Of a stretch of 26,720 bases of DNA, positions 1-22,825 are shown piece after piece. The DNA comes from a virus. How positions within the stretch are numbered: the first letter of the stretch is position 1; each line of letters starts with the position of its first letter. The position numbers and the translations under genes were made by a program. The notes under the pieces are model-generated. The model was not told the DNA's origin, did not search any database, and worked only from the letters and a program-made list of their open reading frames with translations. The stretch lies in IMG/VR virus record IMGVR_UViG_3300027833_000189, positions 1-26,720 of that record; one strand, given 5' to 3'.

Positions 1-218
1 CCCCATTTAAGGATATTACGTTGACGTTCATGTGGTGCATCATCGTACTCACACAAATCAATCTGGTCATCGTGAACAGTACGTCTTACGTAATCCAGAC
101 CACCGTCAACCATGTAGTGTTTACCATTGGCATCGGTGTATTCTTTATAGTCATGTCTATGTGTAGACTCTAGTATAGTCCCGTCTGGGGTTTGAAGTGC
201 ATTACGAATAAGGTGCAT
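1..218 (-). CDS. Conserved small phage protein, C-terminus beyond window
   Basis: The first 72 residues are visible, beginning MHLIRNALQTPDGTILES, and the frame stays open to the window edge. The start overlaps the gene 44 stop as TAATG (one shared base), so the two are probably translationally coupled. The visible part is hydrophilic and contains a YTDANGK...YMVDGGLDY segment and an acidic CEYDDAPHE segment. I recognise the type as a conserved hypothetical protein of marine T4-like phages, but I know no function. In T4 the gene after 44 is 62, the small clamp-loader subunit. This protein does not look like gp62, so 62 must lie further on or elsewhere. Confidence 0.75.
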   Translation of the reverse strand, partial: MHLIRNALQTPDGTILESTHRHDYKEYTDANGKHYMVDGGLDYVRRTVHDDQIDLCEYDDAPHERQRNILKW

Positions 219-5327: not shown

Positions 5328-5942
5328 TTACTCTATAAAATTACCTAAGTCGGAATCAACCTTGACGGTACGTCTCTTGCGTTCCTTCTTAACAATCTCT
5401 TTCCACTCTTTATCCTTGTCCTTGATTTCATCAATACGGAATCTGAGTGTGTCAACGAATGCGTTGGCGATTTGGTGAGAATGGGCATCACCTAGTTCAT
5501 TATCAAGAAACTGTTCAACACCAGCCTGTTCCATATAACGCATCTTGATGTCTTGTTGTTTCTTTTCTTTCTCAATCCTACGTAGGAATGCGAACCAAGA
5601 AATCTGGGTGAAGTATGCAAACGCATTAGGTTTACCAGTACGAGTTGCCGCTTCAATGTTGTAGTTCTCAATTGCCTTTAGACAGTTCTCTACTGCATCC
5701 ATCACCATCTCTTCACGATAGGTGTAACGGACGAAGTTTGCCTTGTGGGATAGTCCCTCACATATCTTTAAGAAACATAGTGCAATGTAGTCAGGTACTA
5801 CGGGGTGTGGAATTTTTGACTCCTTCGCTTCTAATACTTTTGTACAGTAATCCACTACGGACTGAGAGAACATTGCATTGTTTACATAATGCGGTTTGTC
5901 CTTCGGTTTTACTTTTACGGGTTTTTTAATTTCTTCAGTCAT
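5328..5942 (-). CDS. 55: Late sigma factor gp55
   Basis: This is the sigma-like protein that lets host RNA polymerase recognise TATAAATA late promoters. At 204 aa it is slightly longer than T4 gp55 (185 aa). A region with YIALCFLKICEGLSHKANF followed by NPFAYFTQISWFAFLRRI-like sequence (here PNAFAYFTQISWFAFLRRIE) corresponds to the sigma region-2-like core. The basic N-terminus (KKPVKVKPKDKPH) and the C-terminal hydrophobic-acidic tail (DLGNFIE) fit the known clamp-binding tail of gp55. Several TATAAATA sites in the window provide its targets. Its promoter lies inside the upstream cytidylyltransferase gene, and the two coding regions overlap by eight bases. Confidence 0.93.
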   Translation of the reverse strand: MTEEIKKPVKVKPKDKPHYVNNAMFSQSVVDYCTKVLEAKESKIPHPVVPDYIALCFLKICEGLSHKANFVRYTYREEMVMDAVENCLKAIENYNIEAATRTGKPNAFAYFTQISWFAFLRRIEKEKKQQDIKMRYMEQAGVEQFLDNELGDAHSHQIANAFVDTLRFRIDEIKDKDKEWKEIVKKERKRRTVKVDSDLGNFIE

Positions 5943-6369
5943 TTTTAATTTCCATTTTGTTTCTCAAATTAGTACTAGAGATGTTGTGATGTCTACCATT
6001 ATAATACACTTCAAGACAATTGTCAAGCGCATAACCCTTGCCAGTGAAATCTTTTTCTCTGTACTCTTCACCAATAACTCTAACGTCAAACTGAATCAAC
6101 TGCATTAGTCGTAACAAGTCCTCTTCTGACTCGTATGGGATTATCTCATCCACATACTTACAACCCTGAACTTGTACGTATCTTTCAGCTATTGATTGAA
6201 CTGGTTTGTTCTTTTCGGGACGGTCTACACTAGGGTCGGTCTGTAGTCCTACTATAAGGTAGTCACAGACAGTCCGTGCTTCTTTAAGCATAGCGACATG
6301 ACCCGCATGAAACAGGTCGAATGCGCTACAGGTGAATCCGATTTTATTTTTTTCTTTTAGGGTTGACAA
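5935..6369 (-). CDS. Cytidylyltransferase-like nucleotidyltransferase (TagD family)
   Basis: The family transfers a nucleotide from CTP (or another NTP) to a phosphorylated alcohol or sugar. In this 144-aa protein the nucleotide-binding HxGH motif is HAGH at residues 21-24, in GFTCSAFDLFHAGHVAML, and the second family motif is NISSTNLR at 129-136. The length matches TagD-type glycerol-3-phosphate cytidylyltransferases. Similar genes occur in marine T4-like phages, with unknown substrate. The only available in-frame start is a TTG at 6369: an in-frame TAA lies nine bases upstream and no ATG precedes the conserved core. A perfect-consensus promoter for gene 55 is embedded near residues 115-123. 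Confidence 0.88.
   Translation of the reverse strand: MSTLKEKNKIGFTCSAFDLFHAGHVAMLKEARTVCDYLIVGLQTDPSVDRPEKNKPVQSIAERYVQVQGCKYVDEIIPYESEEDLLRLMQLIQFDVRVIGEEYREKDFTGKGYALDNCLEVYYNGRHHNISSTNLRNKMEIKND
5998..6026 (-). promoter_or_regulatory. Perfect-consensus promoter of gene 55 inside the cytidylyltransferase gene
   Basis: Minus strand TTGACA (6026-6021), 17 bases, TATAAT (6003-5998). The boxes fall within codons of the nucleotidyltransferase (protein segment LDNCLEVYYNG). The gene 55 start at 5942 is 56 bases downstream. Confidence 0.85.
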
Positions 6370-6391
6370 AAGTTGTTACTCACTGTATAAT
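6363..6391 (+). promoter_or_regulatory. Perfect-consensus plus-strand promoter, antisense to the 151-aa gene
   Basis: TTGACA (6363-6368), 17 bases, TATAAT (6386-6391) on the plus strand, although all nearby genes are on the minus strand. The -35 overlaps the TTG start of the cytidylyltransferase. A transcript would begin near 6398 and run through a small hairpin into the 3' end of the 151-aa gene as antisense RNA. The same arrangement recurs at 21159-21212. Confidence 0.8.
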
Positions 6392-6401
6392 AAGCTTTAG
6401 C

Positions 6402-6421
6402 GTTCAGGGAAGCTGAATACC
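6402..6421 (+). repeat. Hairpin element, copy 1 of 2
   Basis: TTCAG (6403-6407) pairs with CTGAA (6413-6417) around GGAAG, followed by TACC. Together with the promoter just upstream it matches copy 2 at 21195-21216. The element ends only a few bases from the stop codon of the oppositely oriented 151-aa gene. Confidence 0.65.
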
Positions 6422-6422
6422 A

Positions 6423-6878
6423 TTAATGAACCTGTTCTGGGTCACCACCAAATAACTTAATAACGTTACTACCACTATCCATGGAATGTAACATCTTATC
6501 AATCTTATCTTCGGGAGCTCGTCTTTGGGTTTGTGCCTTCTCTGAGAATGTCTGATTGTATTCTTGTTCACGAGATGCATTCATCTCTGCCATTTCAGTG
6601 ACAGCCTCATGATATTGTACTAACAAAGTCTCAGGTGGATATGCTGTACCCACAACATTGTTGACGTTCATAATCATCAAATCATCTGGATGTTCTTGGT
6701 ATACCATCCATGGTCTGAATGAGTAATACTTTATCCCATCGTCAGTTTCTACTAATACCAGACGCATTGCTGCACGAATCAATATTTCGTCTTCGTGTTC
6801 AACACCCCATTGCACCACTTCACACACAACCTCTTCACCAGATGTTGTTTTAAATTGTCTCAATTCTTTATCACTCAT
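6423..6878 (-). CDS. Hypothetical protein, possible Sm/Lsm-like N-terminal domain (151 aa)
   Basis: The N-terminal half (KTTSGEEVVCEVVQWG, then a strand-rich segment with IRAAMRLVLVETDDGIKYYSFRPWM) has the spacing and strand pattern of a small Sm-like barrel. I recall similar proteins in marine T4-like phages. This is pattern recognition, not a domain hit. The second half is helical and charged, ending with a short hydrophobic patch (NVIKLFGG). The start overlaps the uvsW stop by four bases (ATGA), so it is coupled to the helicase. An antisense promoter fires toward its 3' end. If it is Sm-like, an RNA-binding role would be plausible. Confidence 0.8.
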   Translation of the reverse strand: MSDKELRQFKTTSGEEVVCEVVQWGVEHEDEILIRAAMRLVLVETDDGIKYYSFRPWMVYQEHPDDLMIMNVNNVVGTAYPPETLLVQYHEAVTEMAEMNASREQEYNQTFSEKAQTQRRAPEDKIDKMLHSMDSGSNVIKLFGGDPEQVH

Positions 6879-8359
6879 TTTAAATCCAATTTATATATGT
6901 TATAAGGAAACTGCTCTTTAGTATATATCTTAATTCTTTCTGCACTGTGGCGCAGTGTAAAGTTCTTATGTGACTTAACGTGAAGGTCATCCGCTATATC
7001 ATACAATTTGGTCACAGAGCCATCATCAGACTTCCTCAGTCCTCGCCCTATCGATTGCAGTACCTTAACCTGACTCTTACTAGGGGATGCGAATACTATA
7101 TTGTGCAAATTCTTAATATTGATACCTGTACTGAATGTTCCAAGACTCGCCACAATAATCGCATTCTTCTGTCCTTCCACAATACCTCGTATCTGTTCAC
7201 GGTCAGATGTTTCGACTTCTCCTGACACATAGTACACAGGTCGGTCACCTGCTTTATCCTTAATCATATCGAATAACGGTTTACCGTGTTTCTCTACGAA
7301 TTGAAATAGAACCAGCGTATTACCTTTCTGGTCTATCGTAAGGTTACTTATAAGTTTATTACGTTTCTCATTTGTGACAATATAGTCCATTTCCTCTTGG
7401 TAAGTCTTACCCTGCATCATGACACATATGTCATTATGATAACGCAATAACAATATAGTAATATCTAACTTTGCGAGTGTACCCTTCTCTTGCAAATCCT
7501 TGGTCATAGTCACTCGCCTAGTCGGGCCGAACAACCCTTCCAGTACAAGTTTATTGGTCTCTGTACCGTCCAGCGTACCTGTAGTGCCGAATCGATACTC
7601 CGCATTCACACACTTGTTCATTATACCAGATAGAGATTTTGCCTTAAATAGATGAACCTCATCACCAAACACACAACCCATTGTCTCGAACCATTCCTTC
7701 GGGAACTTATAGATGGACTGCCATGTAGAGATGATTATAGGTTTTGTCGTGTTCTTGTCTTTACCACCATAGATACGATGTACATTATTAGCCACATCAT
7801 AACCATAGTCCTCAAAGTCTTTGTACAGTTGTTCCACCAAACTTGTAGTAGGAACAACAATAAGAATCTGTTTATCAGGGTATCCGTCCATGTACCATCG
7901 CATTAGGTTATAGATGATATATGACTTACCACTACCTGTAGGCGACAAAAGGATTGCACGTTTCTTTTCGATGCCGTGTGTGACCGCATCATACTGATAG
8001 TCATATAATGGAAAGGGTAGACCAAGTTCTGACTGGAACTTTATTAACCATTGATGGTCTACTTTGTTAGTCAGTGCGGGATGACCGTAATCAGTCTCTT
8101 GTAATTGGAGAGGGTACATACGGTCAGTACAAAACTTTTTCAGATGTTCGTAGAGACCCGCATTTAACTCACGAGTAATCTGATTAAAAAGTTTGATTTT
8201 TCCGTCCCACTTCCTCGTCTTAAATGCTGGCATATATTTATGGCCAGGCACAAAGAACGAGAAGTAGTCACGGAGTTCTTGGAGTTGATGCTGATTACAA
8301 TCAATCAACATCATCGCATGGTCTCTCAGGGAGACGGTAATAGTATTAGGTAGTGTCAT
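6875..8359 (-). CDS. uvsW: DNA helicase UvsW
   Basis: This is an SF2 helicase that in T4 unwinds R-loops and branched recombination intermediates, switching replication from origin- to recombination-dependent initiation. At 494 aa it is near the T4 length (503 aa). The N-terminal UvsW domain includes the KTRKWDGKIKLFNQ segment. The helicase core has Walker A SPTGSGKS at 139-146, DEVH at 233-236, motif III-like GTTGTLDG, and motif VI QSIGRGLRKS near the C-terminus. It lies between uvsY and the 151-aa gene, with no clear sigma-70 promoter of its own. It is probably reached from the late promoter at 9402. Confidence 0.96.
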   Translation of the reverse strand: MTLPNTITVSLRDHAMMLIDCNQHQLQELRDYFSFFVPGHKYMPAFKTRKWDGKIKLFNQITRELNAGLYEHLKKFCTDRMYPLQLQETDYGHPALTNKVDHQWLIKFQSELGLPFPLYDYQYDAVTHGIEKKRAILLSPTGSGKSYIIYNLMRWYMDGYPDKQILIVVPTTSLVEQLYKDFEDYGYDVANNVHRIYGGKDKNTTKPIIISTWQSIYKFPKEWFETMGCVFGDEVHLFKAKSLSGIMNKCVNAEYRFGTTGTLDGTETNKLVLEGLFGPTRRVTMTKDLQEKGTLAKLDITILLLRYHNDICVMMQGKTYQEEMDYIVTNEKRNKLISNLTIDQKGNTLVLFQFVEKHGKPLFDMIKDKAGDRPVYYVSGEVETSDREQIRGIVEGQKNAIIVASLGTFSTGINIKNLHNIVFASPSKSQVKVLQSIGRGLRKSDDGSVTKLYDIADDLHVKSHKNFTLRHSAERIKIYTKEQFPYNIYKLDLK

Positions 8360-8378
8360 ACATCTATATATGTACGAA

Positions 8379-8828
8379 TTAACTACCAGCTTCGAAACTT
8401 CTCCAACGTATCATGTTACCAATTGTCTGATGACGCCAGTTGAGATTATTGACAATCTCAGTGAGGGTTTCTACAATAGTTTTGAGATACTGGATTGTCA
8501 TCTCGGACTCTTGTATTTCTTTGTCGGAGTCGTAATAATATTCTTTGAAGTTCTTGGTGGTCGCACTAAGGCCCTCATAGGGGTCATAAGCCCACCCCCG
8601 TGCCTGAATATCGTCCTGCGACATCTTACCTTCATAATAAAGGTACTTGTCCTTGAGTAAGGTTTTCTGTTTGAACTCTGACTTCTTCAGTCGAAGTTTA
8701 GTCAGAGACAGATACTCAAGATACTTTGCATGGAGAGAAGGAGTCACACGAGAAGTCTCGTCTAACTGGTGCGGACTTATTTGGGAGTCTTCTTTCCACT
8801 CCGCTAAAATACTTTCTAAATCAATCAT
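8379..8828 (-). CDS. uvsY: Recombination mediator UvsY
   Basis: In T4 this protein loads the UvsX recombinase onto single-stranded DNA coated by gp32. At 149 aa it is near T4 UvsY (137 aa). It is basic and helical, with conserved features including LHAKYLEYLSLTKLRLKKSE, the DKYLYYEGK segment, and the C-terminal MIRWRSFEAG, which matches the RAFEAG ending of the T4 protein. It follows the gp19-like gene by 19 bases and precedes uvsW by 19 bases, in one transcription unit. Identified from these family landmarks. Confidence 0.92.
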   Translation of the reverse strand: MIDLESILAEWKEDSQISPHQLDETSRVTPSLHAKYLEYLSLTKLRLKKSEFKQKTLLKDKYLYYEGKMSQDDIQARGWAYDPYEGLSATTKNFKEYYYDSDKEIQESEMTIQYLKTIVETLTEIVNNLNWRHQTIGNMIRWRSFEAGS

Positions 8829-9409: not shown

Positions 9410-9413
9410 AGAG

Positions 9414-10366: not shown

Positions 10367-10390
10367 AATCATTTCCTTTCTCTAGTTTAT

Positions 10391-10435
10391 GTACTTATTA
10401 TAACAACAACAGCAACGTTTGGCAACACTTATTTT
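10391..10435 (-). repeat. 45-bp exact direct repeat carrying a promoter, copy 1
   Basis: Identical over 45 bases to 10604-10648, same orientation, 213 bases apart. On the minus strand it holds TTGCCA (10425-10420), 17 bases and TATAAT (10402-10397), a sigma-70 promoter for the 100-aa gene and those after it. The 49-aa gene's stop codon lies at the edge of this copy. Confidence 0.88.
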
Positions 10436-10578: not shown

Positions 10579-10603
10579 AGTCACTTCCTTTTTCATTATC
10601 TAA

Positions 10604-10648
10604 GTACTTATTATAACAACAACAGCAACGTTTGGCAACACTTATTTT
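10604..10648 (-). repeat. 45-bp exact direct repeat carrying a promoter, copy 2
   Basis: Second copy of the repeat: TTGCCA (10638-10633), 17 bases, TATAAT (10615-10610) on the minus strand. It drives the 49-aa gene. It stands back to back with the plus-strand promoter at 10664-10692. Confidence 0.88.
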
Positions 10649-10716: not shown

Positions 10717-11856
10717 ATGATACTTACACAACCTGACGCAGAATACGCTGCGAATGTCTTTACCGAGTTCTTTGCGAACTTTGAACGTATTGACGACTAT
10801 ATGAGACAGATTAAGATGGAACGCATGGACTCTATGCCCTTCACTTTGCCTGGCATGGGCCCTGAAGAGGATATGTTCAACAACTTCGATATGCACCCCA
10901 AGGATATGGAGTTCAGTATCGCAACCGCACATCGTGACCAGTTCATGTCCTATATGGATATCACCACGTCCGCACCTGTAGAGGCGTCAATTCCAGGCAA
11001 GATGATGAACTGGGTAGTACGTGAGAAGAACAGTGGTATGGTTGTGGGTATGATTCGTTTCGGTTCTCCTACTATTAATAGCAGACCACGTAATGAGTGG
11101 TTGGGCAAACCTCTGGACACCATGAATGGTGAGGTTATGAAACGATTCAACAAGACCTGTATCATGGGATTCAACATCGTACCAGTACAACCGTTCGGGT
11201 TCAACTACCTTGGTGGTAAGTTACTTGCAGCTATATGTACCTCGCATACGGTACGTGAGACACTTAATAAGAAGTATGATGCAAACATCTGTATGTTCGA
11301 GACGACCTCCTTATACGGTAATGCCAAGGGTGGTGTGTCTATGTACTCAGGTATGAAACCACTATTGATTGGTAATGGACAGACAGACTCTAACTTTGCG
11401 CCACTCATCAATGATGACAACTATCGTACATTGAGTGACTGGTTCATCAAACGCAATGGGGGTGAACCTCTTGTACCAAAGGATGCATCATCTCGTAAGT
11501 TAAAGACTCAACAGAAGATGGTATCAATCATCAAGAACTCTCTAAAGGAATACGACATGGACGCATACACTAAGTTCTGTCAAACCTTTATTGATGCAAA
11601 GGGACTAACACAACAAAAGAATTCATACTACTCTACTATGGGATATGACCGTGAGAGTGTGAAGAAGTATCTCAACCTTGAGACCGACACAATCGTCAAA
11701 TCAGATAACTATGACCGATTCAGTCTTGAGGGTGTGACAGATTGGTGGCGTAAGAAGGCAACCAATCGATATGAGAATCTTAAACAGGATGGTCGTTTAC
11801 GTACTGTGCAAGAGACTTGGAATACAAATGCAAAAGATATTGATATAATTAGATAA
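10717..11856 (+). CDS. DUF4338/DruA-like protein of unknown function (379 aa)
   Basis: The product is a soluble 379-aa protein. The middle region resembles the DUF4338 family, which includes DruA of the Druantia defence system. It has VVREKNSGMVVGMIRFGSP (residues 100-118), a charged segment ending RNEWLGK, NKTCIMGFNIVPVQPFGFNYLGGKLL (145-170), then MFETTSLYGNAKGGVSMY (193-210). The family order is a GxIxFGSP strand, a conserved ILP/IVP strand, a helix, and an ET...GT.Y segment. This is by-eye similarity and could be coincidental. A GAGGAA site precedes the ATG and an early-type promoter serves the gene. It is one of only two protein genes on the plus strand. Biochemical role unknown. Confidence 0.72.
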   Translation: MILTQPDAEYAANVFTEFFANFERIDDYMRQIKMERMDSMPFTLPGMGPEEDMFNNFDMHPKDMEFSIATAHRDQFMSYMDITTSAPVEASIPGKMMNWVVREKNSGMVVGMIRFGSPTINSRPRNEWLGKPLDTMNGEVMKRFNKTCIMGFNIVPVQPFGFNYLGGKLLAAICTSHTVRETLNKKYDANICMFETTSLYGNAKGGVSMYSGMKPLLIGNGQTDSNFAPLINDDNYRTLSDWFIKRNGGEPLVPKDASSRKLKTQQKMVSIIKNSLKEYDMDAYTKFCQTFIDAKGLTQQKNSYYSTMGYDRESVKKYLNLETDTIVKSDNYDRFSLEGVTDWWRKKATNRYENLKQDGRLRTVQETWNTNAKDIDIIR

Positions 11857-11861
11857 AACGC

Positions 11862-11890
11862 TTGCCATTATAGTAAAGGTGTTATATAAT
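11862..11890 (+). promoter_or_regulatory. Promoter of the ParB-like gene
   Basis: TTGCCA (11862-11867), 17 bases, TATAAT (11885-11890), beginning six bases after the previous stop codon. The -35 variant TTGCCA is the same as in the 45-bp repeats. Confidence 0.82.
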
Positions 11891-11898
11891 GAACGGGT

Positions 11899-11948
11899 TA
11901 TATGAGATAAAAGTCTTATATATAATTGTAAGGCATTCATACCGAATG
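11899..11948 (+). promoter_or_regulatory. Two consecutive hairpins in the leader of the ParB-like gene
   Basis: Hairpin 1: TATATGAGA (11899-11907) pairs with TCTTATATA (11914-11922), nine pairs with one G-U. Hairpin 2: GGCATTC (11932-11938) pairs with GAATGTC (11944-11950 region), about seven pairs around ATACC. They fill most of the leader between the promoter and the AGGAG ribosome site. They could stabilise the mRNA or regulate translation; no riboswitch class is recognised. Confidence 0.55.
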
Positions 11949-11977
11949 TCACAAAATAAAATAATCAGGAGATTATT

Positions 11978-13012
11978 ATGATTAGTAAAAGTACTAAATT
12001 TAGTGAAGTGTCTGGGGCACTTGCAACCATCACTGGTGTTGTATCCGTTCAGGAAATCATCGACGCCATCCTACAAATCGACAACTTCAAGTCAAAGACA
12101 TTGGTCAATATGAAAACCAACGCTACGTATAACCCCAATGAAGTTGGTGTCGTTCCTCTAAGTAAACTTTATGTCGATGTGACCTACCAACGTGTTCTTC
12201 GTCTTAAAAAGTTAGTTAATAAACTAAAGAAGATGAATGGATATGATATGTACTCAGCTGGGGTTATTGATATAGCAATTCGACCTTGTGGTGATAGTTA
12301 TGTGTGGGATGGTCTAAGACGTTGCGTCATGGCTGGACTATGCGGATTGACTCATGTGAAGTCATCTCAGTTTATACACCCAATGAGTTCTTCAATTAGA
12401 CGATGCCAAAAAACAGAAGCACAATACTTCAAGTCTCGTAATGCTGATAACGAAAATATGAAGGCGGAAGAAATTTTCAAGTCGGAAGTTGTCTTTGGTG
12501 ACCCAAGGGCTTTGGAACTTCTTGAAATGATTAAGAACTGTGGACTTGATATTGAGGGGTTAAATCCTCTTGGTGGTAGAGTGTTTGGTGGATTTGTCGA
12601 ATTTCGCAACGTTTATTTCTCAGAGACGAATGGTCTTAGTCATATGTCAGATGAGTGGGTGAGAGTCGTTGATAATTTCATAATCGCTGCGTCAATAATC
12701 AGACGAGTTTATCCAACTGGGGTTGTATCAGGATACTTTCTCACAGGACTGTATGAACTTCTCAAACATAACGATGATTGTGATTCCTCGTATGATGAAG
12801 AAGAAATAATCGATGCTTTTAAAACCTATGCGGTTACGCACCCTAAACAAACGGACGTGATTCGAGGTAGATTGGCTGGTAACGCAAAGGGTAGTATTGC
12901 ATATCTTATTGCAAGAAGGGTCTTGAAAGACACCAATGGTCTTGTCAATTCTCTGAATTTGAATGGAGATGATGTCACATTAATGGACGAATTAATACTA
13001 GAAGCGGCTTGA
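11978..13012 (+). CDS. ParB-like (DUF6551-type) protein (344 aa)
   Basis: The central region fits a ParB/sulfiredoxin-like domain. VVPLSKLYVDVTYQR (residues 58-72) gives the usual start with the YQR signature. A helix LKKLVNKLKKMNGY follows, then a strand IDIAIRPCGDSYVWDGLRRCVMAG (97-120), with DGLRR in place of the common DGxHR. The rest, about 200 residues, is helical with no motif I recognise. Members of this fold act in DNA partition, as nucleases or as NTP-binding switches; which applies cannot be told here. The gene has its own promoter, a hairpin-rich leader and a good AGGAG site six bases before the ATG. The tRNA promoter overlaps its end. Confidence 0.75.
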   Translation: MISKSTKFSEVSGALATITGVVSVQEIIDAILQIDNFKSKTLVNMKTNATYNPNEVGVVPLSKLYVDVTYQRVLRLKKLVNKLKKMNGYDMYSAGVIDIAIRPCGDSYVWDGLRRCVMAGLCGLTHVKSSQFIHPMSSSIRRCQKTEAQYFKSRNADNENMKAEEIFKSEVVFGDPRALELLEMIKNCGLDIEGLNPLGGRVFGGFVEFRNVYFSETNGLSHMSDEWVRVVDNFIIAASIIRRVYPTGVVSGYFLTGLYELLKHNDDCDSSYDEEEIIDAFKTYAVTHPKQTDVIRGRLAGNAKGSIAYLIARRVLKDTNGLVNSLNLNGDDVTLMDELILEAA

Positions 13013-13048: not shown

Positions 13049-13122
13049 GCGGAATTAGTATAATGGCATTACAGGAGGTTTCCAACCTTTTGACGGGAGT
13101 TCGATTCTCTCATTCCGCTCCA
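13049..13122 (+). tRNA. tRNA-Gly (anticodon UCC), CCA encoded
   Basis: A complete cloverleaf can be drawn. The acceptor GCGGAAT pairs with ATTCCGC. The anticodon stem GGAGG/CCTTT has loop TTTCCAA, giving anticodon UCC. The T stem GGGAG/CTCTC has loop TTCGATT. The discriminator is U, followed by encoded CCA. It reads GGA/GGG glycine codons. It is the only tRNA gene seen in the window, closed by a strong terminator 15 bases later. Confidence 0.93.
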
Positions 13123-19286: not shown

Positions 19287-21059
19287 TTATACTGTGCCAA
19301 CTACTTCTTCAAACTCAACACCAGTTCTAACTGCAACAAAATTCAATGTTACGTAGTTAATAGAACGAGCGGGTTTGATGAAGATAGAAGCAATGAATTC
19401 ATTACGGTCAACAACAGCAGGCGTGTTATTGGTTGTATCACAGATTACTCGGAAGTCCGTGATACCACGTCTACCTTGAATCTCACGAAGGAACGGTTCA
19501 ACGATGTTAACGAACTCAGCACGAGTAAACTCGTCATTGAATTCAAACATTACGTTACGTCCTGCAATCGAAATTGCACGTTCTACAGCGAGGAACAATC
19601 TACGAACATTAATTCTGTCAAATGCAGAAGGTCTTGATTCGTTTGTCTTATCACCGAAGAGCATGATGCCTTCGCCTGGGATATTTGCGATTGGGTTAAT
19701 ACCAACCTTGTACAATGCATCTCTTTCCGCTTTAGTCGGAGATACTACGATGTCGGTAATACCAAGGTAACGACCACGTCTAGAACCAGCAGGACTGAAC
19801 CACGGTGCAGCGACTAAGTCGGTTGCAGCCATAAGACCAGCAGTGGAAGATGCAGCAGGAATCTTGATATACTTATCATTGTACTTATCAAATACTTTGA
19901 TGTAGTTGTTGTCCTGTACCAAGTAAGACGACTTCGTGTATGTGTTGTTACAAGCAAGAACACCAGCGTTGGTGCCTAAAGTAATAACAGCGTTACGAGA
20001 AGGTGATGCAACAGCAACACAGTCCTTACGTATAGAAGCAGCAGTAGCGACTAAGTCATTTACGACAGTAGTAGCGGTTGCGTCAGCTAATGATTCAGGT
20101 GCAATTAGAAAATCTACTTCGATGTTATCTTTGTCTTCGAATTTATCGAATCCACGAAGAACGTCATCGGTTCCAAGGGAAGAGGAAGTTATTCCAGAAG
20201 CAAACGACCAAGTATCTTGCATATTAGTAGCGTTACCACCAGTTTTAAAATCACGAGCATCTACAGCGGGATTACCCCATTGTGTGCTTCGTCCACCAAG
20301 GTCACTAGTTCCGTCTGAGTCACCACTATGTAGTTGACCAGAATAAATCCAAGCAGAACGATTCTTCAATACGTCTTTAAAGTAGTTTGATGTTCCATCA
20401 GGAGATTTTGCGTTTGAAGCAACAGATAGGTACGGGAATGTTTCTAGGACTGTGCCGGGCGTTCCAGTAATATCACCAATCTCATCGATAACTGCAATGT
20501 GGATTTCATCGTTAGATGCACCAACACCAGTAGCGAAAGGAGATGTGCCTGGAGCTCCATCGAAAGAACCTTTATAGGCCCATGCGTTGAAGTTTGTTAA
20601 CGAACCATTAGCACTGTCTGTTCCTGTAATAGAGACCTTTAGTGAGTTACCAATCTTGCCAGGAAATTTCGCAATAAAGGCACCATCAGAACTATCTAAA
20701 GCAAGTGCTTCAAATGCGTCTCGGTTACCAATAGTCTGTGCAGTTACCGAACCTAACGAGGTATGGTTTGCGACAGCGTTTCTAGCATCGGAGTCCTGTT
20801 CACGTACTACGTACAGTGAATTGGAGTATCTTAAAAAATATGCAGCAGAGTGGAAGTCTACTGAGTTTGCATCGATTGGTGCGCTGAATGTGCTTACTAG
20901 ACCAGTCTCATCTGAGACTAATGTTGCAACACCGACTGGGCCCCATCCGAAGTTTCCTACATATGCACCAGTAGAAGTTTGCACATTGGGGACTACGCCC
21001 GTCAGGTCAATTTCTTTTACTGTTACAGCAGGAGAAGCAGAGGGAGTAAATAAAGCCAT
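19287..21059 (-). CDS. 18: Tail sheath protein gp18
   Basis: This is the contractile sheath subunit. At 590 aa it is shorter than T4 gp18 (659 aa). It begins with a typical SPAVTVKEIDLTGVVPNVQTSTGAYVGNFGWGP segment. The C-terminal domain has DAL(Y)KVGINPIANIPGEGIMLFGDKT, the conserved INVRRLFLAVERAI, and the final YVTLNFVAVRTGVEFEEVVG strand. The middle is a variable alanine/serine/threonine-rich insertion domain. Two exact late promoters precede it. Confidence 0.96.
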   Translation of the reverse strand: MALFTPSASPAVTVKEIDLTGVVPNVQTSTGAYVGNFGWGPVGVATLVSDETGLVSTFSAPIDANSVDFHSAAYFLRYSNSLYVVREQDSDARNAVANHTSLGSVTAQTIGNRDAFEALALDSSDGAFIAKFPGKIGNSLKVSITGTDSANGSLTNFNAWAYKGSFDGAPGTSPFATGVGASNDEIHIAVIDEIGDITGTPGTVLETFPYLSVASNAKSPDGTSNYFKDVLKNRSAWIYSGQLHSGDSDGTSDLGGRSTQWGNPAVDARDFKTGGNATNMQDTWSFASGITSSSLGTDDVLRGFDKFEDKDNIEVDFLIAPESLADATATTVVNDLVATAASIRKDCVAVASPSRNAVITLGTNAGVLACNNTYTKSSYLVQDNNYIKVFDKYNDKYIKIPAASSTAGLMAATDLVAAPWFSPAGSRRGRYLGITDIVVSPTKAERDALYKVGINPIANIPGEGIMLFGDKTNESRPSAFDRINVRRLFLAVERAISIAGRNVMFEFNDEFTRAEFVNIVEPFLREIQGRRGITDFRVICDTTNNTPAVVDRNEFIASIFIKPARSINYVTLNFVAVRTGVEFEEVVGTV

Positions 21060-21125: not shown

Positions 21126-21149
21126 TATTTATACATTACCTTATTTATA
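21126..21149 (-). promoter_or_regulatory. Two tandem T4-type late promoters of gene 18
   Basis: Exact TATAAATA at 21142-21149 and again at 21126-21133, same strand, 16 bases apart. They give a leader of about 60-80 bases before the gene 18 ATG at 21059. Doubling suits a protein needed in many copies. Confidence 0.85.
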
Positions 21150-21158
21150 GAAAAGGGC

Positions 21159-21187
21159 TTGACAAATTATGTAAAATAGTGTATAAT
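21159..21187 (+). promoter_or_regulatory. Perfect-consensus plus-strand promoter, antisense to gene 17
   Basis: TTGACA (21159-21164), 17 bases, TATAAT (21182-21187) on the plus strand. A transcript from about 21194 would pass through hairpin copy 2 and run antisense into the 3' end of gene 17. No plus-strand gene follows within the rest of the window. Confidence 0.82.
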
Positions 21188-21194
21188 CCTAGCT

Positions 21195-21216
21195 CTTCAG
21201 GGGAAAGCTGAATACC
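21195..21216 (+). repeat. Hairpin element, copy 2 of 2
   Basis: TTCAG (21196-21200) pairs with CTGAA (21208-21212) around GGGAAAG, followed by TACC. It shares TTCAGGG..AAGCTGAATACC with copy 1 at 6402-6421 and has the same distance from its promoter, within two bases. It lies next to the stop codon of the opposite gene 17. Confidence 0.65.
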
Positions 21217-21220
21217 TTTA

Positions 21221-22825
21221 TTACCACTCGGTTCCACCTTCGAATGCGTGCCATCCTCTAGTCGAAGTCTCTTCTTCTTCTATATCCTGTAGTCCATTAT
21301 CAATGAAACCAACTGGTGGTACGTCATCGTCAATCTCTTTCATCTTCCTTGCAAACATCATCTCTTTAAGATTAATGTCTGTCATGTCAGCAAAGAACTG
21401 TGACGTTACAAAGTATCCGAACATAACCAGATTCATCATTAGGTCATCGTGGTTACCATCAGAAGCTTCGTATGACTGACCTCTTGAAGTAAAGGTTGAT
21501 ATCTCCATGATGGTATTCTCATCAACGATACTCAACTTCTTCTCTTCCAATATATCCTTAATAGAAGAACAACCAAGTCTCTTGGTCTTCCTATTTATCT
21601 CTATGCCAATTCGGTCTGCCTTGACTGCGGACTCCATATGAAGGTTCTCATACTCTAGGTCTTGATACAGTCCATTACACACAACCGTACCTTGGTCGTT
21701 TGATTCAACAACAACATATGCCTCATTGTAGAAATTTGCATACTTATATATAATATTAGGAAAGAGTAATGGAGAAATAGTATTATTGCGATAGACAGCA
21801 ACCTGTTTGAAAGGTCTTGTGCTAATGTCGATTACGTTAAACGTAGAATAATCTTGACCTCTTCCTTTTGATACGTCCACACACATAACATATTCGTGTT
21901 CTTGTTCTGGATTGTCATATATTAAAAAGTCACCCCCTTCACGATGAGATGAGGGTTGTGTTGCACGAAACCCCAATAGTGTCTCGGCATTAATTAGGGT
22001 GTCACCTGTTCCGAAGAAAGTATTGCCAAATTCTTGGTCAAACTGTAATTGGGATGTATTACCTATCGTCTGTTTCTTCCATGCCTCGTCTCGGCCCGGC
22101 ACATCATACCAGTTCACTGTAAACGGAATGAAGTCATTTACCTTCTGTACCGCACCTTCCCATATCTTATGGAACGTATTACCGATACCATTTGCGGTAG
22201 ATGTAATGATAACCTTAGTATCTTTACCCGCAGAGATAACAGGATAGGTAGAAGTGTAGAACTCATTTGCACGTTCAACAAACGCAAACTCATCTAGGAA
22301 CAATAGGTTAACCGACATACCACGAATAGAACTACCAGAGGTAGATGCGGCAATGATACGTGAGTTGTTACTGAATTCGATAGAACCCTTGTTGAGTGCC
22401 TTAGTGCCCGGCTGAAGGAAGAACGGAAGGTTCTCCAACATGAGTGTGACACGACCCAACATCTCCCTTGCAGTAGAACCTTTGTTCGCAAGTACAGCAA
22501 TGACCTTCTCACTGTGGAAGACCGCAAACCAGAGTATGTAACCAACCGAACTGATTGATTTACCTGACTGTCTACACGCAAGTACGATAGAGAATCGGTT
22601 TTTATTGAAGTGGTCAAACATCGTCTCTTGATATGGATACAAGTCAAACGGCACTAACCCGTCATCCAGAGAGATTACTTTTAGATAATTCTTACAGAAG
22701 TATACAGGGTCACTCGAACACTTTAAGTATTCTTTGATTTCCCATTCGGTAAAACTATGTTGAACTCCATCACGCTTAACATTAATGTTACCTAGATAGG
22801 ATTCATTCCTGTTCGGGTTCGACAT
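21221..22825 (-). CDS. 17: Terminase large subunit gp17 (TerL)
   Basis: This is the packaging motor ATPase and headful nuclease. At 534 aa it is shorter than T4 gp17 (610 aa). ATPase motifs: Walker A-like LACRQSGKS near residues 82-90 and Walker B LLFLDE at 174-179. The RNase H-like nuclease motifs are VMCVDVSKGRGQDYS (D317), VVVESNDQG (E374) and DGNHDDLMM toward the C-terminus. The start overlaps gene 16 by 23 bases. The 3' end faces an antisense promoter. Confidence 0.97.
   Translation of the reverse strand: MSNPNRNESYLGNINVKRDGVQHSFTEWEIKEYLKCSSDPVYFCKNYLKVISLDDGLVPFDLYPYQETMFDHFNKNRFSIVLACRQSGKSISSVGYILWFAVFHSEKVIAVLANKGSTAREMLGRVTLMLENLPFFLQPGTKALNKGSIEFSNNSRIIAASTSGSSIRGMSVNLLFLDEFAFVERANEFYTSTYPVISAGKDTKVIITSTANGIGNTFHKIWEGAVQKVNDFIPFTVNWYDVPGRDEAWKKQTIGNTSQLQFDQEFGNTFFGTGDTLINAETLLGFRATQPSSHREGGDFLIYDNPEQEHEYVMCVDVSKGRGQDYSTFNVIDISTRPFKQVAVYRNNTISPLLFPNIIYKYANFYNEAYVVVESNDQGTVVCNGLYQDLEYENLHMESAVKADRIGIEINRKTKRLGCSSIKDILEEKKLSIVDENTIMEISTFTSRGQSYEASDGNHDDLMMNLVMFGYFVTSQFFADMTDINLKEMMFARKMKEIDDDVPPVGFIDNGLQDIEEEETSTRGWHAFEGGTEW

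Follow-up and report, generated by a model that had tools for sequence, protein, structure and literature searches.

The window, by which we mean the whole 26.7-kb stretch of DNA analysed, is a fragment of a T4-like marine phage whose closest annotated relative is Phage C48C1 (Kyanoviridae; gp17 71% identical). Almost all of its genes lie on the minus strand and run, from high to low coordinates, in the order gene 17, gene 18, portal and major head genes, uvsY, uvsW, a gene-139-like gene, and genes 55, 47, 46, and 45. Two sites in this fragment carry a promoter unit that opposes these genes, one at the gene 17/18 junction (copy 2) and one at the gene 139/gene 55 junction (copy 1). The coordinates of both are given in Table 1. 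No nucleotide relatives of the gene 17/18 region were found in the phage collection searched.

Table 1. Features at and around the two antisense promoter units of the window.
Feature	Position	Strand	Remarks
Gene 17, terminase large subunit	21221..22825	-	3′ end faces copy 2; stop (TTA on plus strand) at 21221-21223
Copy 2 initial transcribed sequence, TCTTCAGGGGAAAGCTGAATACC	21194..21216	+	Core TTCAGGGGAAAGCTGAATACC at 21196-21216, as in copy 1; weak stem pairs 21196-21200 with 21208-21212
Copy 2 promoter, TTGACA-17-TATAAT, antisense to gene 17	21159..21187	+	12/12 bases match; −35 at 21159-21164, −10 at 21182-21187; boxes kept in relatives
Two late-promoter motifs of gene 18, TATAAATA	21142-21149 and 21126-21133	-	Back to back with copy 2; read directly, the first also listed by the scan
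Gene 18, tail sheath	19287..21059	-	
uvsY	8379..8828	-	
uvsW helicase	6875..8359	-	
Gene-139-like protein (phrog_527 / phrog_471 'methylamine utilization')	6423..6878	-	Stop (6423-6425) abuts copy 1; synteny agrees
Copy 1 initial transcribed sequence, TAGCGTTCAGGGAAGCTGAATACC	6398..6421	+	Core at 6403-6421; copy 1 overall at 6363-6421
Copy 1 promoter, TTGACA-17-TATAAT	6363..6391	+	12/12 bases match; deeply conserved site
Gene 55, late sigma factor	5328..5942	-	Opens the early/replication block, across copy 1 from the gene-139-like gene

The block on the uvsW side of copy 1 is driven by the late promoter motif TATAAATA at 9410, and the gene 55-47-46-45 block is served by early promoters at 6026, 5320, 3976, 2229, and 1229. 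Judged by these predicted promoters, the copy 1 site is the border between a late-promoter-driven block and an early block. Elsewhere, the late minus-strand block is broken by two plus-strand genes with no assigned function (phrog_19197 and phrog_2558, 10717-13012) and by a tRNA (13049-13119, plus strand). There is also a 48-nt repeat (10388-10435 and 10601-10648, 98% identical) with a TTGCCA-17-TATAAT promoter, which precedes two small minus-strand genes.

Two antisense promoter units and their conservation

The element at 21159-21216, which a sequence-only reading had flagged as a second antisense promoter with a hairpin, is real: the boxes are perfect, the spacer is 17 nt, the core is present, and all of its coordinates are correct. 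Both copies carry the boxes of a host sigma-70 early promoter (TTGACA and TATAAT, 16-18 nt apart), oriented so as to read into a gene of the other strand, as in cis-antisense transcription. The match claimed between the two copies also holds, with the same boxes, the same spacer length, and near-identical cores in which TTCAGGG and GCTGAATACC are exactly shared and two loop bases differ. By comparison, the spacers themselves are only 53% identical. By chance, the window should hold 0.03 copies of a TTGACA-N15..19-TATAAT arrangement, yet it has four, two of them antisense, and the expected number of chance occurrences of the 21-nt core at three or fewer mismatches is 0.00. As the same reading stated, copy 2 opposes gene 17 within a few bases of its stop codon (4 nt) and stands back to back with the two late-promoter motifs of gene 18.

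The better conserved of the two window copies is, on comparison of sequences, copy 1 rather than the flagged copy 2. A scan for gene 55 gave 80 loci, 74 of them usable for a count at gene ends, and a unit was counted where an opposite-strand promoter with at most one mismatch is found near the stop of the gene preceding gene 55. Such a promoter is present at 55 of the 74 gene-55-proximal loci but at only 2 of the roughly 285 gene ends elsewhere. Most of these units (47) are directly upstream of gene 55, and the other eight are at the same gene 139-type end with one extra gene between. The −10 box keeps a narrowly distributed distance from the stop (median 32 nt), and many units abut the stop codon (0-6 nt). 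The unit is present in Syn9 (at 123733, minus strand; TTGACA-17-TAGAAT AACACTGTCAGGGTTGAAGGG), at the corresponding place in S-PM2d (74932, minus strand), and at the gene-55-proximal place in P-RSM4, Syn1, Syn19, S-CAM3, S-RIM2, and P-TIM68. S-SSM4, S-N03, and S-CRM01 have a weak unit or none at this place. Viewing copy 1 as an element of the uvsY 3′ end is wrong, as the adjoining gene is the gene-139-like gene downstream of uvsW. A similar leader, AGCTATGTAGGGTTTGAGAATGAATAT, is found with a weaker promoter at the gene 55 junction of Methylophilales phage Melnitz EXVC044M (132249-132439).

For copy 2, we compared 80 contigs that carry a relative of gp17. Among these, an antisense promoter at the gene 17/18 junction is confined to the closest clade (L006-L009, L011, and L047), and pattern scans add a copy at this junction in L107, L111, L253, L258, L261, and L281. 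The whole unit is absent and the junction is shorter in L010 and L012-L024, whose gp17 proteins are 84-88% identical, and C48C1 and ACG-2014d do not have the gene 17/18 unit. Copy 2 is therefore a lineage-restricted copy, seen in close relatives of the window and in none of the other contigs examined that encode a gp17 relative. Random drift of the −35 and −10 boxes in close relatives, which had been named in advance as evidence against the element, is not seen; the boxes are kept in every relative with the unit while the spacer drifts. However, the terminase-specific role proposed for copy 2 is unsupported as stated, since the unit at the gene 17/18 junction is limited to a small clade and the conserved site is that of copy 1.

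Leader sequence and structure

Consensus promoters on the strand opposite the genes are rare in these phages. The ratio of TTGACA-16..18-TATAAT promoters on the gene strand to those on the opposite strand is 38:3, 20:2, 17:1, and 6:1 in the large contigs G001, G002, G003, and G004, and in each of them the few antisense promoters include the gene-55 unit. The initial transcribed sequences also differ: antisense ones contain GGG in 77% of cases and sense ones in 12%, and their GC contents are 0.42 and 0.29. Conservation extends to three parts of the unit, namely its promoter, a G-rich block in most cases, and a TGAATAC or GTATAC motif immediately ahead of the stop. C runs replace the G runs in L413 and L434, and a AAACAAACAA-like sequence is found at five loci.

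A leader is repeated within the related contig G001 (199 kb). Each of its three opposite-strand promoters has the leader AACTAAGTYGTGCCGGGGCAGGTTGGT, and a fourth unit (28479, minus strand) opposes gene 4 (head closure) at its end and is also antisense because the local genes run on the plus strand. In total, the leader accompanies four antisense units and none of the 37 sense promoters. These leaders are 89% identical on average versus 56% for the 17-nt spacers, and the window copies behave in the same way, with identical core arms. Recent copying alone would keep the spacers too, and therefore the leader is constrained within a phage independently of the promoter. Between phages, the leader sequence differs. 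The promoter, position, orientation, and conservation of the units and the sharing of the leader within a phage are direct observations.

Certain look-alikes (L177, L197, and G002 at 69254) were dropped because they are sense-orientation coding sequence of one gene family, which mimics the promoter plus leader and is a trap for pattern searches. Matches from a scan of bacterial genomes are mostly due to chance, as the pattern is too loose. A different promoter-leader, TTGGACGCAACATGGGAGTGACTGAATAAACTTACTGGCAAC, is common to viral contigs L108, L136, L143, L149, L159, and L170 from other samples.

The hairpin attributed to the element is common to both window copies, but it is weak and is not kept generally. 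In copy 2 it has 5 bp and a folding energy of −4.0 kcal/mol (z −0.05 versus shuffled sequence), and in copy 1 it reaches −5.7 kcal/mol (z −1.8), so neither is an outlier in stability. Folding of 38 units gives a mean z of −0.38, and some loci have C runs or CAA-rich leaders. We therefore reject the hairpin as a general conserved feature. Covariation in the stem cannot be scored because the 3′ arm, TGAATAC, is almost invariant among units. The plus strand folds at lower energy than its complement, and this was left out as evidence because G/U-rich strands fold better from composition alone. A perfect 7-bp arm pair (GTATTCA..TGAATAC) is seen in the T4-like contig L255, where a unit near the end of gene 4 matches the gene 4 location of one G001 copy.

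Other simple identities were also rejected. At the Rfam gathering score, the window yields only a tRNA and seven related loci give no relevant match, which leaves the units without a known RNA family. A terminator is not indicated, as the T run is absent and no intrinsic terminator (G+C-rich hairpin plus T run) was called at either window unit. A small antisense ORF is likewise unsupported: an ATG often follows the unit, but most such ATGs come from the reversed CATTAA at the 'His-stop' terminus of gene 139, and none is present at gene 17 or in contigs of the HMO-2011 type, which are considered below.

Possible functions of the units

We tentatively favour the explanation that the units target late operons with an antisense RNA, made early and bearing a special leader at its 5′ end. 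Each unit would be an early promoter for the unmodified sigma-70 polymerase of the host, from which an untranslated RNA would enter a late operon in reverse, starting at the operon's 3′ end. Copy 1 would oppose uvsY-uvsW-gene 139 in this way, and copy 2 gene 17. While infection is at an early stage, this RNA and the head-on polymerase would hold any read-through expression of that operon down from its 3′ end, and this brake would lift once the polymerase switches to gp55-dependent late promoters. The first ~25 nt, usually a G-rich block followed by TGAATAC or GTATAC, would serve as a 5′ leader dedicated to this RNA and absent from the phage's ordinary early mRNAs, most likely to protect the 5′ end or to confer termination resistance on the untranslated RNA. 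Transcription of the unit, its timing and length, the effect on late genes, and the role of the leader are what we infer here. This explanation extends the earlier proposal but puts the uvsW/gene 55 border, not terminase, at its centre. Terminase expression may be lowered by copy 2. Copy 2 and the gene 4 copy of G001 also face late structural genes.

Several observations run counter to an early antisense RNA. Two of the four G001 units face genes with no assigned function, so that for these two a late target is putative. The RNA would span only the 3′ ends of genes unless it is long, and the identity of leaders within a phage exceeds what pairing in cis needs and points to a partner in trans. 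In addition, contigs resembling HMO-2011-type pelagiphages (SAR11-phage-like relatives of HTVC103P) carry the same promoter followed by ..GGGG..TTGAATAC (L131, L147, L184, L194, L239, L146, L125, and others). In these, the unit precedes the small terminase gene but is directed away from the late operon, towards noncoding DNA with TATATATA and a G-rich block, and hence it is not antisense there. What the T4-like and HMO-2011-type contexts share, as judged from sequence, is that the predicted RNA is untranslated at its start.

This layout and that of T4 oriF/oriG make an RNA-primed (R-loop) replication origin a serious rival, if an unlikely one. Here the G-rich start of an early transcript would nucleate an RNA:DNA hybrid, and the RNA would prime DNA synthesis. 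T4 oriF(uvsY) and oriG(34) span ~100 bp, combine a promoter with an AT-rich unwinding element, have no motif common to origins, and form R-loops that UvsW unwinds (PMC3016281). The units resemble them in having a promoter near recombination genes with a presumed non-messenger purpose, and the conserved unit adjoins uvsW itself. However, the T4 origins use MotA middle promoters, whereas the units combine a plain sigma-70 promoter with a conserved leader. The G-rich initial sequences and the noncoding DNA ahead of the HMO-2011-type unit are suggestive of such an origin. In L131, this DNA holds four to five iteron-like palindromic repeats (AAACTCTTTAGAGTTT, 771-1046), a region that is a candidate replication origin of HMO-2011-type pelagiphages. 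HTVC103P has a promoter at the corresponding place, the only plus-strand consensus promoter of its genome, with a more distant leader, and its GC-skew minimum is ~700 nt downstream. Yet this minimum also coincides with divergent transcription, and in five T4-like genomes the skew minimum is off the unit, ~8 to 30 kb away. Moreover, ordinary coding sequence lies downstream of the unit in T4-like phages, some loci have the C runs or AAACAAACAA-like sequences noted above, and R-loops do not require identical leaders within a phage.

The units might instead act as boundary insulators, whereby a head-on polymerase at the 3′ end of one operon stops read-through into the next and the RNA itself is irrelevant. 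This is consistent with the close abutment of units to stop codons, their back-to-back placement with the promoters of the next operon, and the lack of an intrinsic terminator at either unit junction in the window. We regard it as rather improbable, as it explains neither the sharing of leaders within a phage nor the placement before noncoding DNA in HMO-2011-type contigs. Leader sharing is better accommodated by a trans-acting small RNA or sponge, in which the common leader would pair with or be bound by a partner elsewhere, since dispersed copies in one phage are near-identical and those of different phages are not. Nevertheless, sequences beyond the leader differ for each copy, a common terminator is not seen, the units have no Rfam match, and most genomes carry a single copy, all of which makes this reading improbable. 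Least probable is a useless by-product of −35 elements shared with the gene 55 early promoter: the −35 boxes do form one palindrome (TTGACAA..TTGTCAA or near) in Syn9, Syn19, P-RSM4, and S-RIM2, but the promoters are separate in the window copies, C48C1, and G001 with both boxes and the leader retained, copy 2 opposes late promoters rather than an early one, and the G001 leaders suggest selection independent of the promoter.

Relation to known systems and significance

Among known systems, promoter-proximal RNA elements that are phage-specific and repeated within one phage include the lambdoid nut and HK022 put antitermination sites, which lie on sense early operons and let polymerase pass terminators. 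The units resemble these in distribution pattern only, as neither a boxB-like hairpin nor the put double hairpin is seen. They share their −35 and −10 boxes, and probably the host polymerase, with the early sigma-70 promoters of cyanomyoviruses. However, the sense early promoters of these phages give short AT-rich mRNA leaders with a ribosome site, mostly with no G-rich leader.

The most similar antisense RNA is CfrI of cyanophage S-PM2, which is ~225 nt, is antisense to psbA and a homing endonuclease gene, and has a proposed but unproven regulatory role; further antisense RNAs have been predicted by bioinformatics (PMC2984593). Like CfrI, the units correspond to a predicted antisense RNA of a T4-like marine phage. 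They differ from it in their location at the gene 139/gene 55 and gene 17/18 junctions and in their common promoter-plus-leader form. A literature search, which was not exhaustive, found no description of such a unit at the gene 139/gene 55 border or of its repetition within a genome.

A broader and rather doubtful proposal is that unrelated marine phages, T4-like and HMO-2011-type, share a portable cassette consisting of a consensus host promoter and a ~25-nt phage-specific leader common to all copies within one phage. A phage-matched partner or the polymerase itself would read the leader, and early untranslated RNAs so marked would be transcribed in full or would prime DNA replication.

The units could bear on what makes an R-loop origin in T4-like phages, which is an open question (PMC3016281). 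Alternatively, they could bear on late-gene timing in marine T4-like phages. Cyanophage members of this group lack MotA and AsiA (PMC2984593). The conserved spot is the border between a late operon and the late-sigma gene. Checkable predictions arise for the model cyanophages Syn9 and S-PM2. The retention of a noncoding unit at one spot across hugely diverged and very abundant ocean phages suggests an important step of infection that gene-based annotation has missed.
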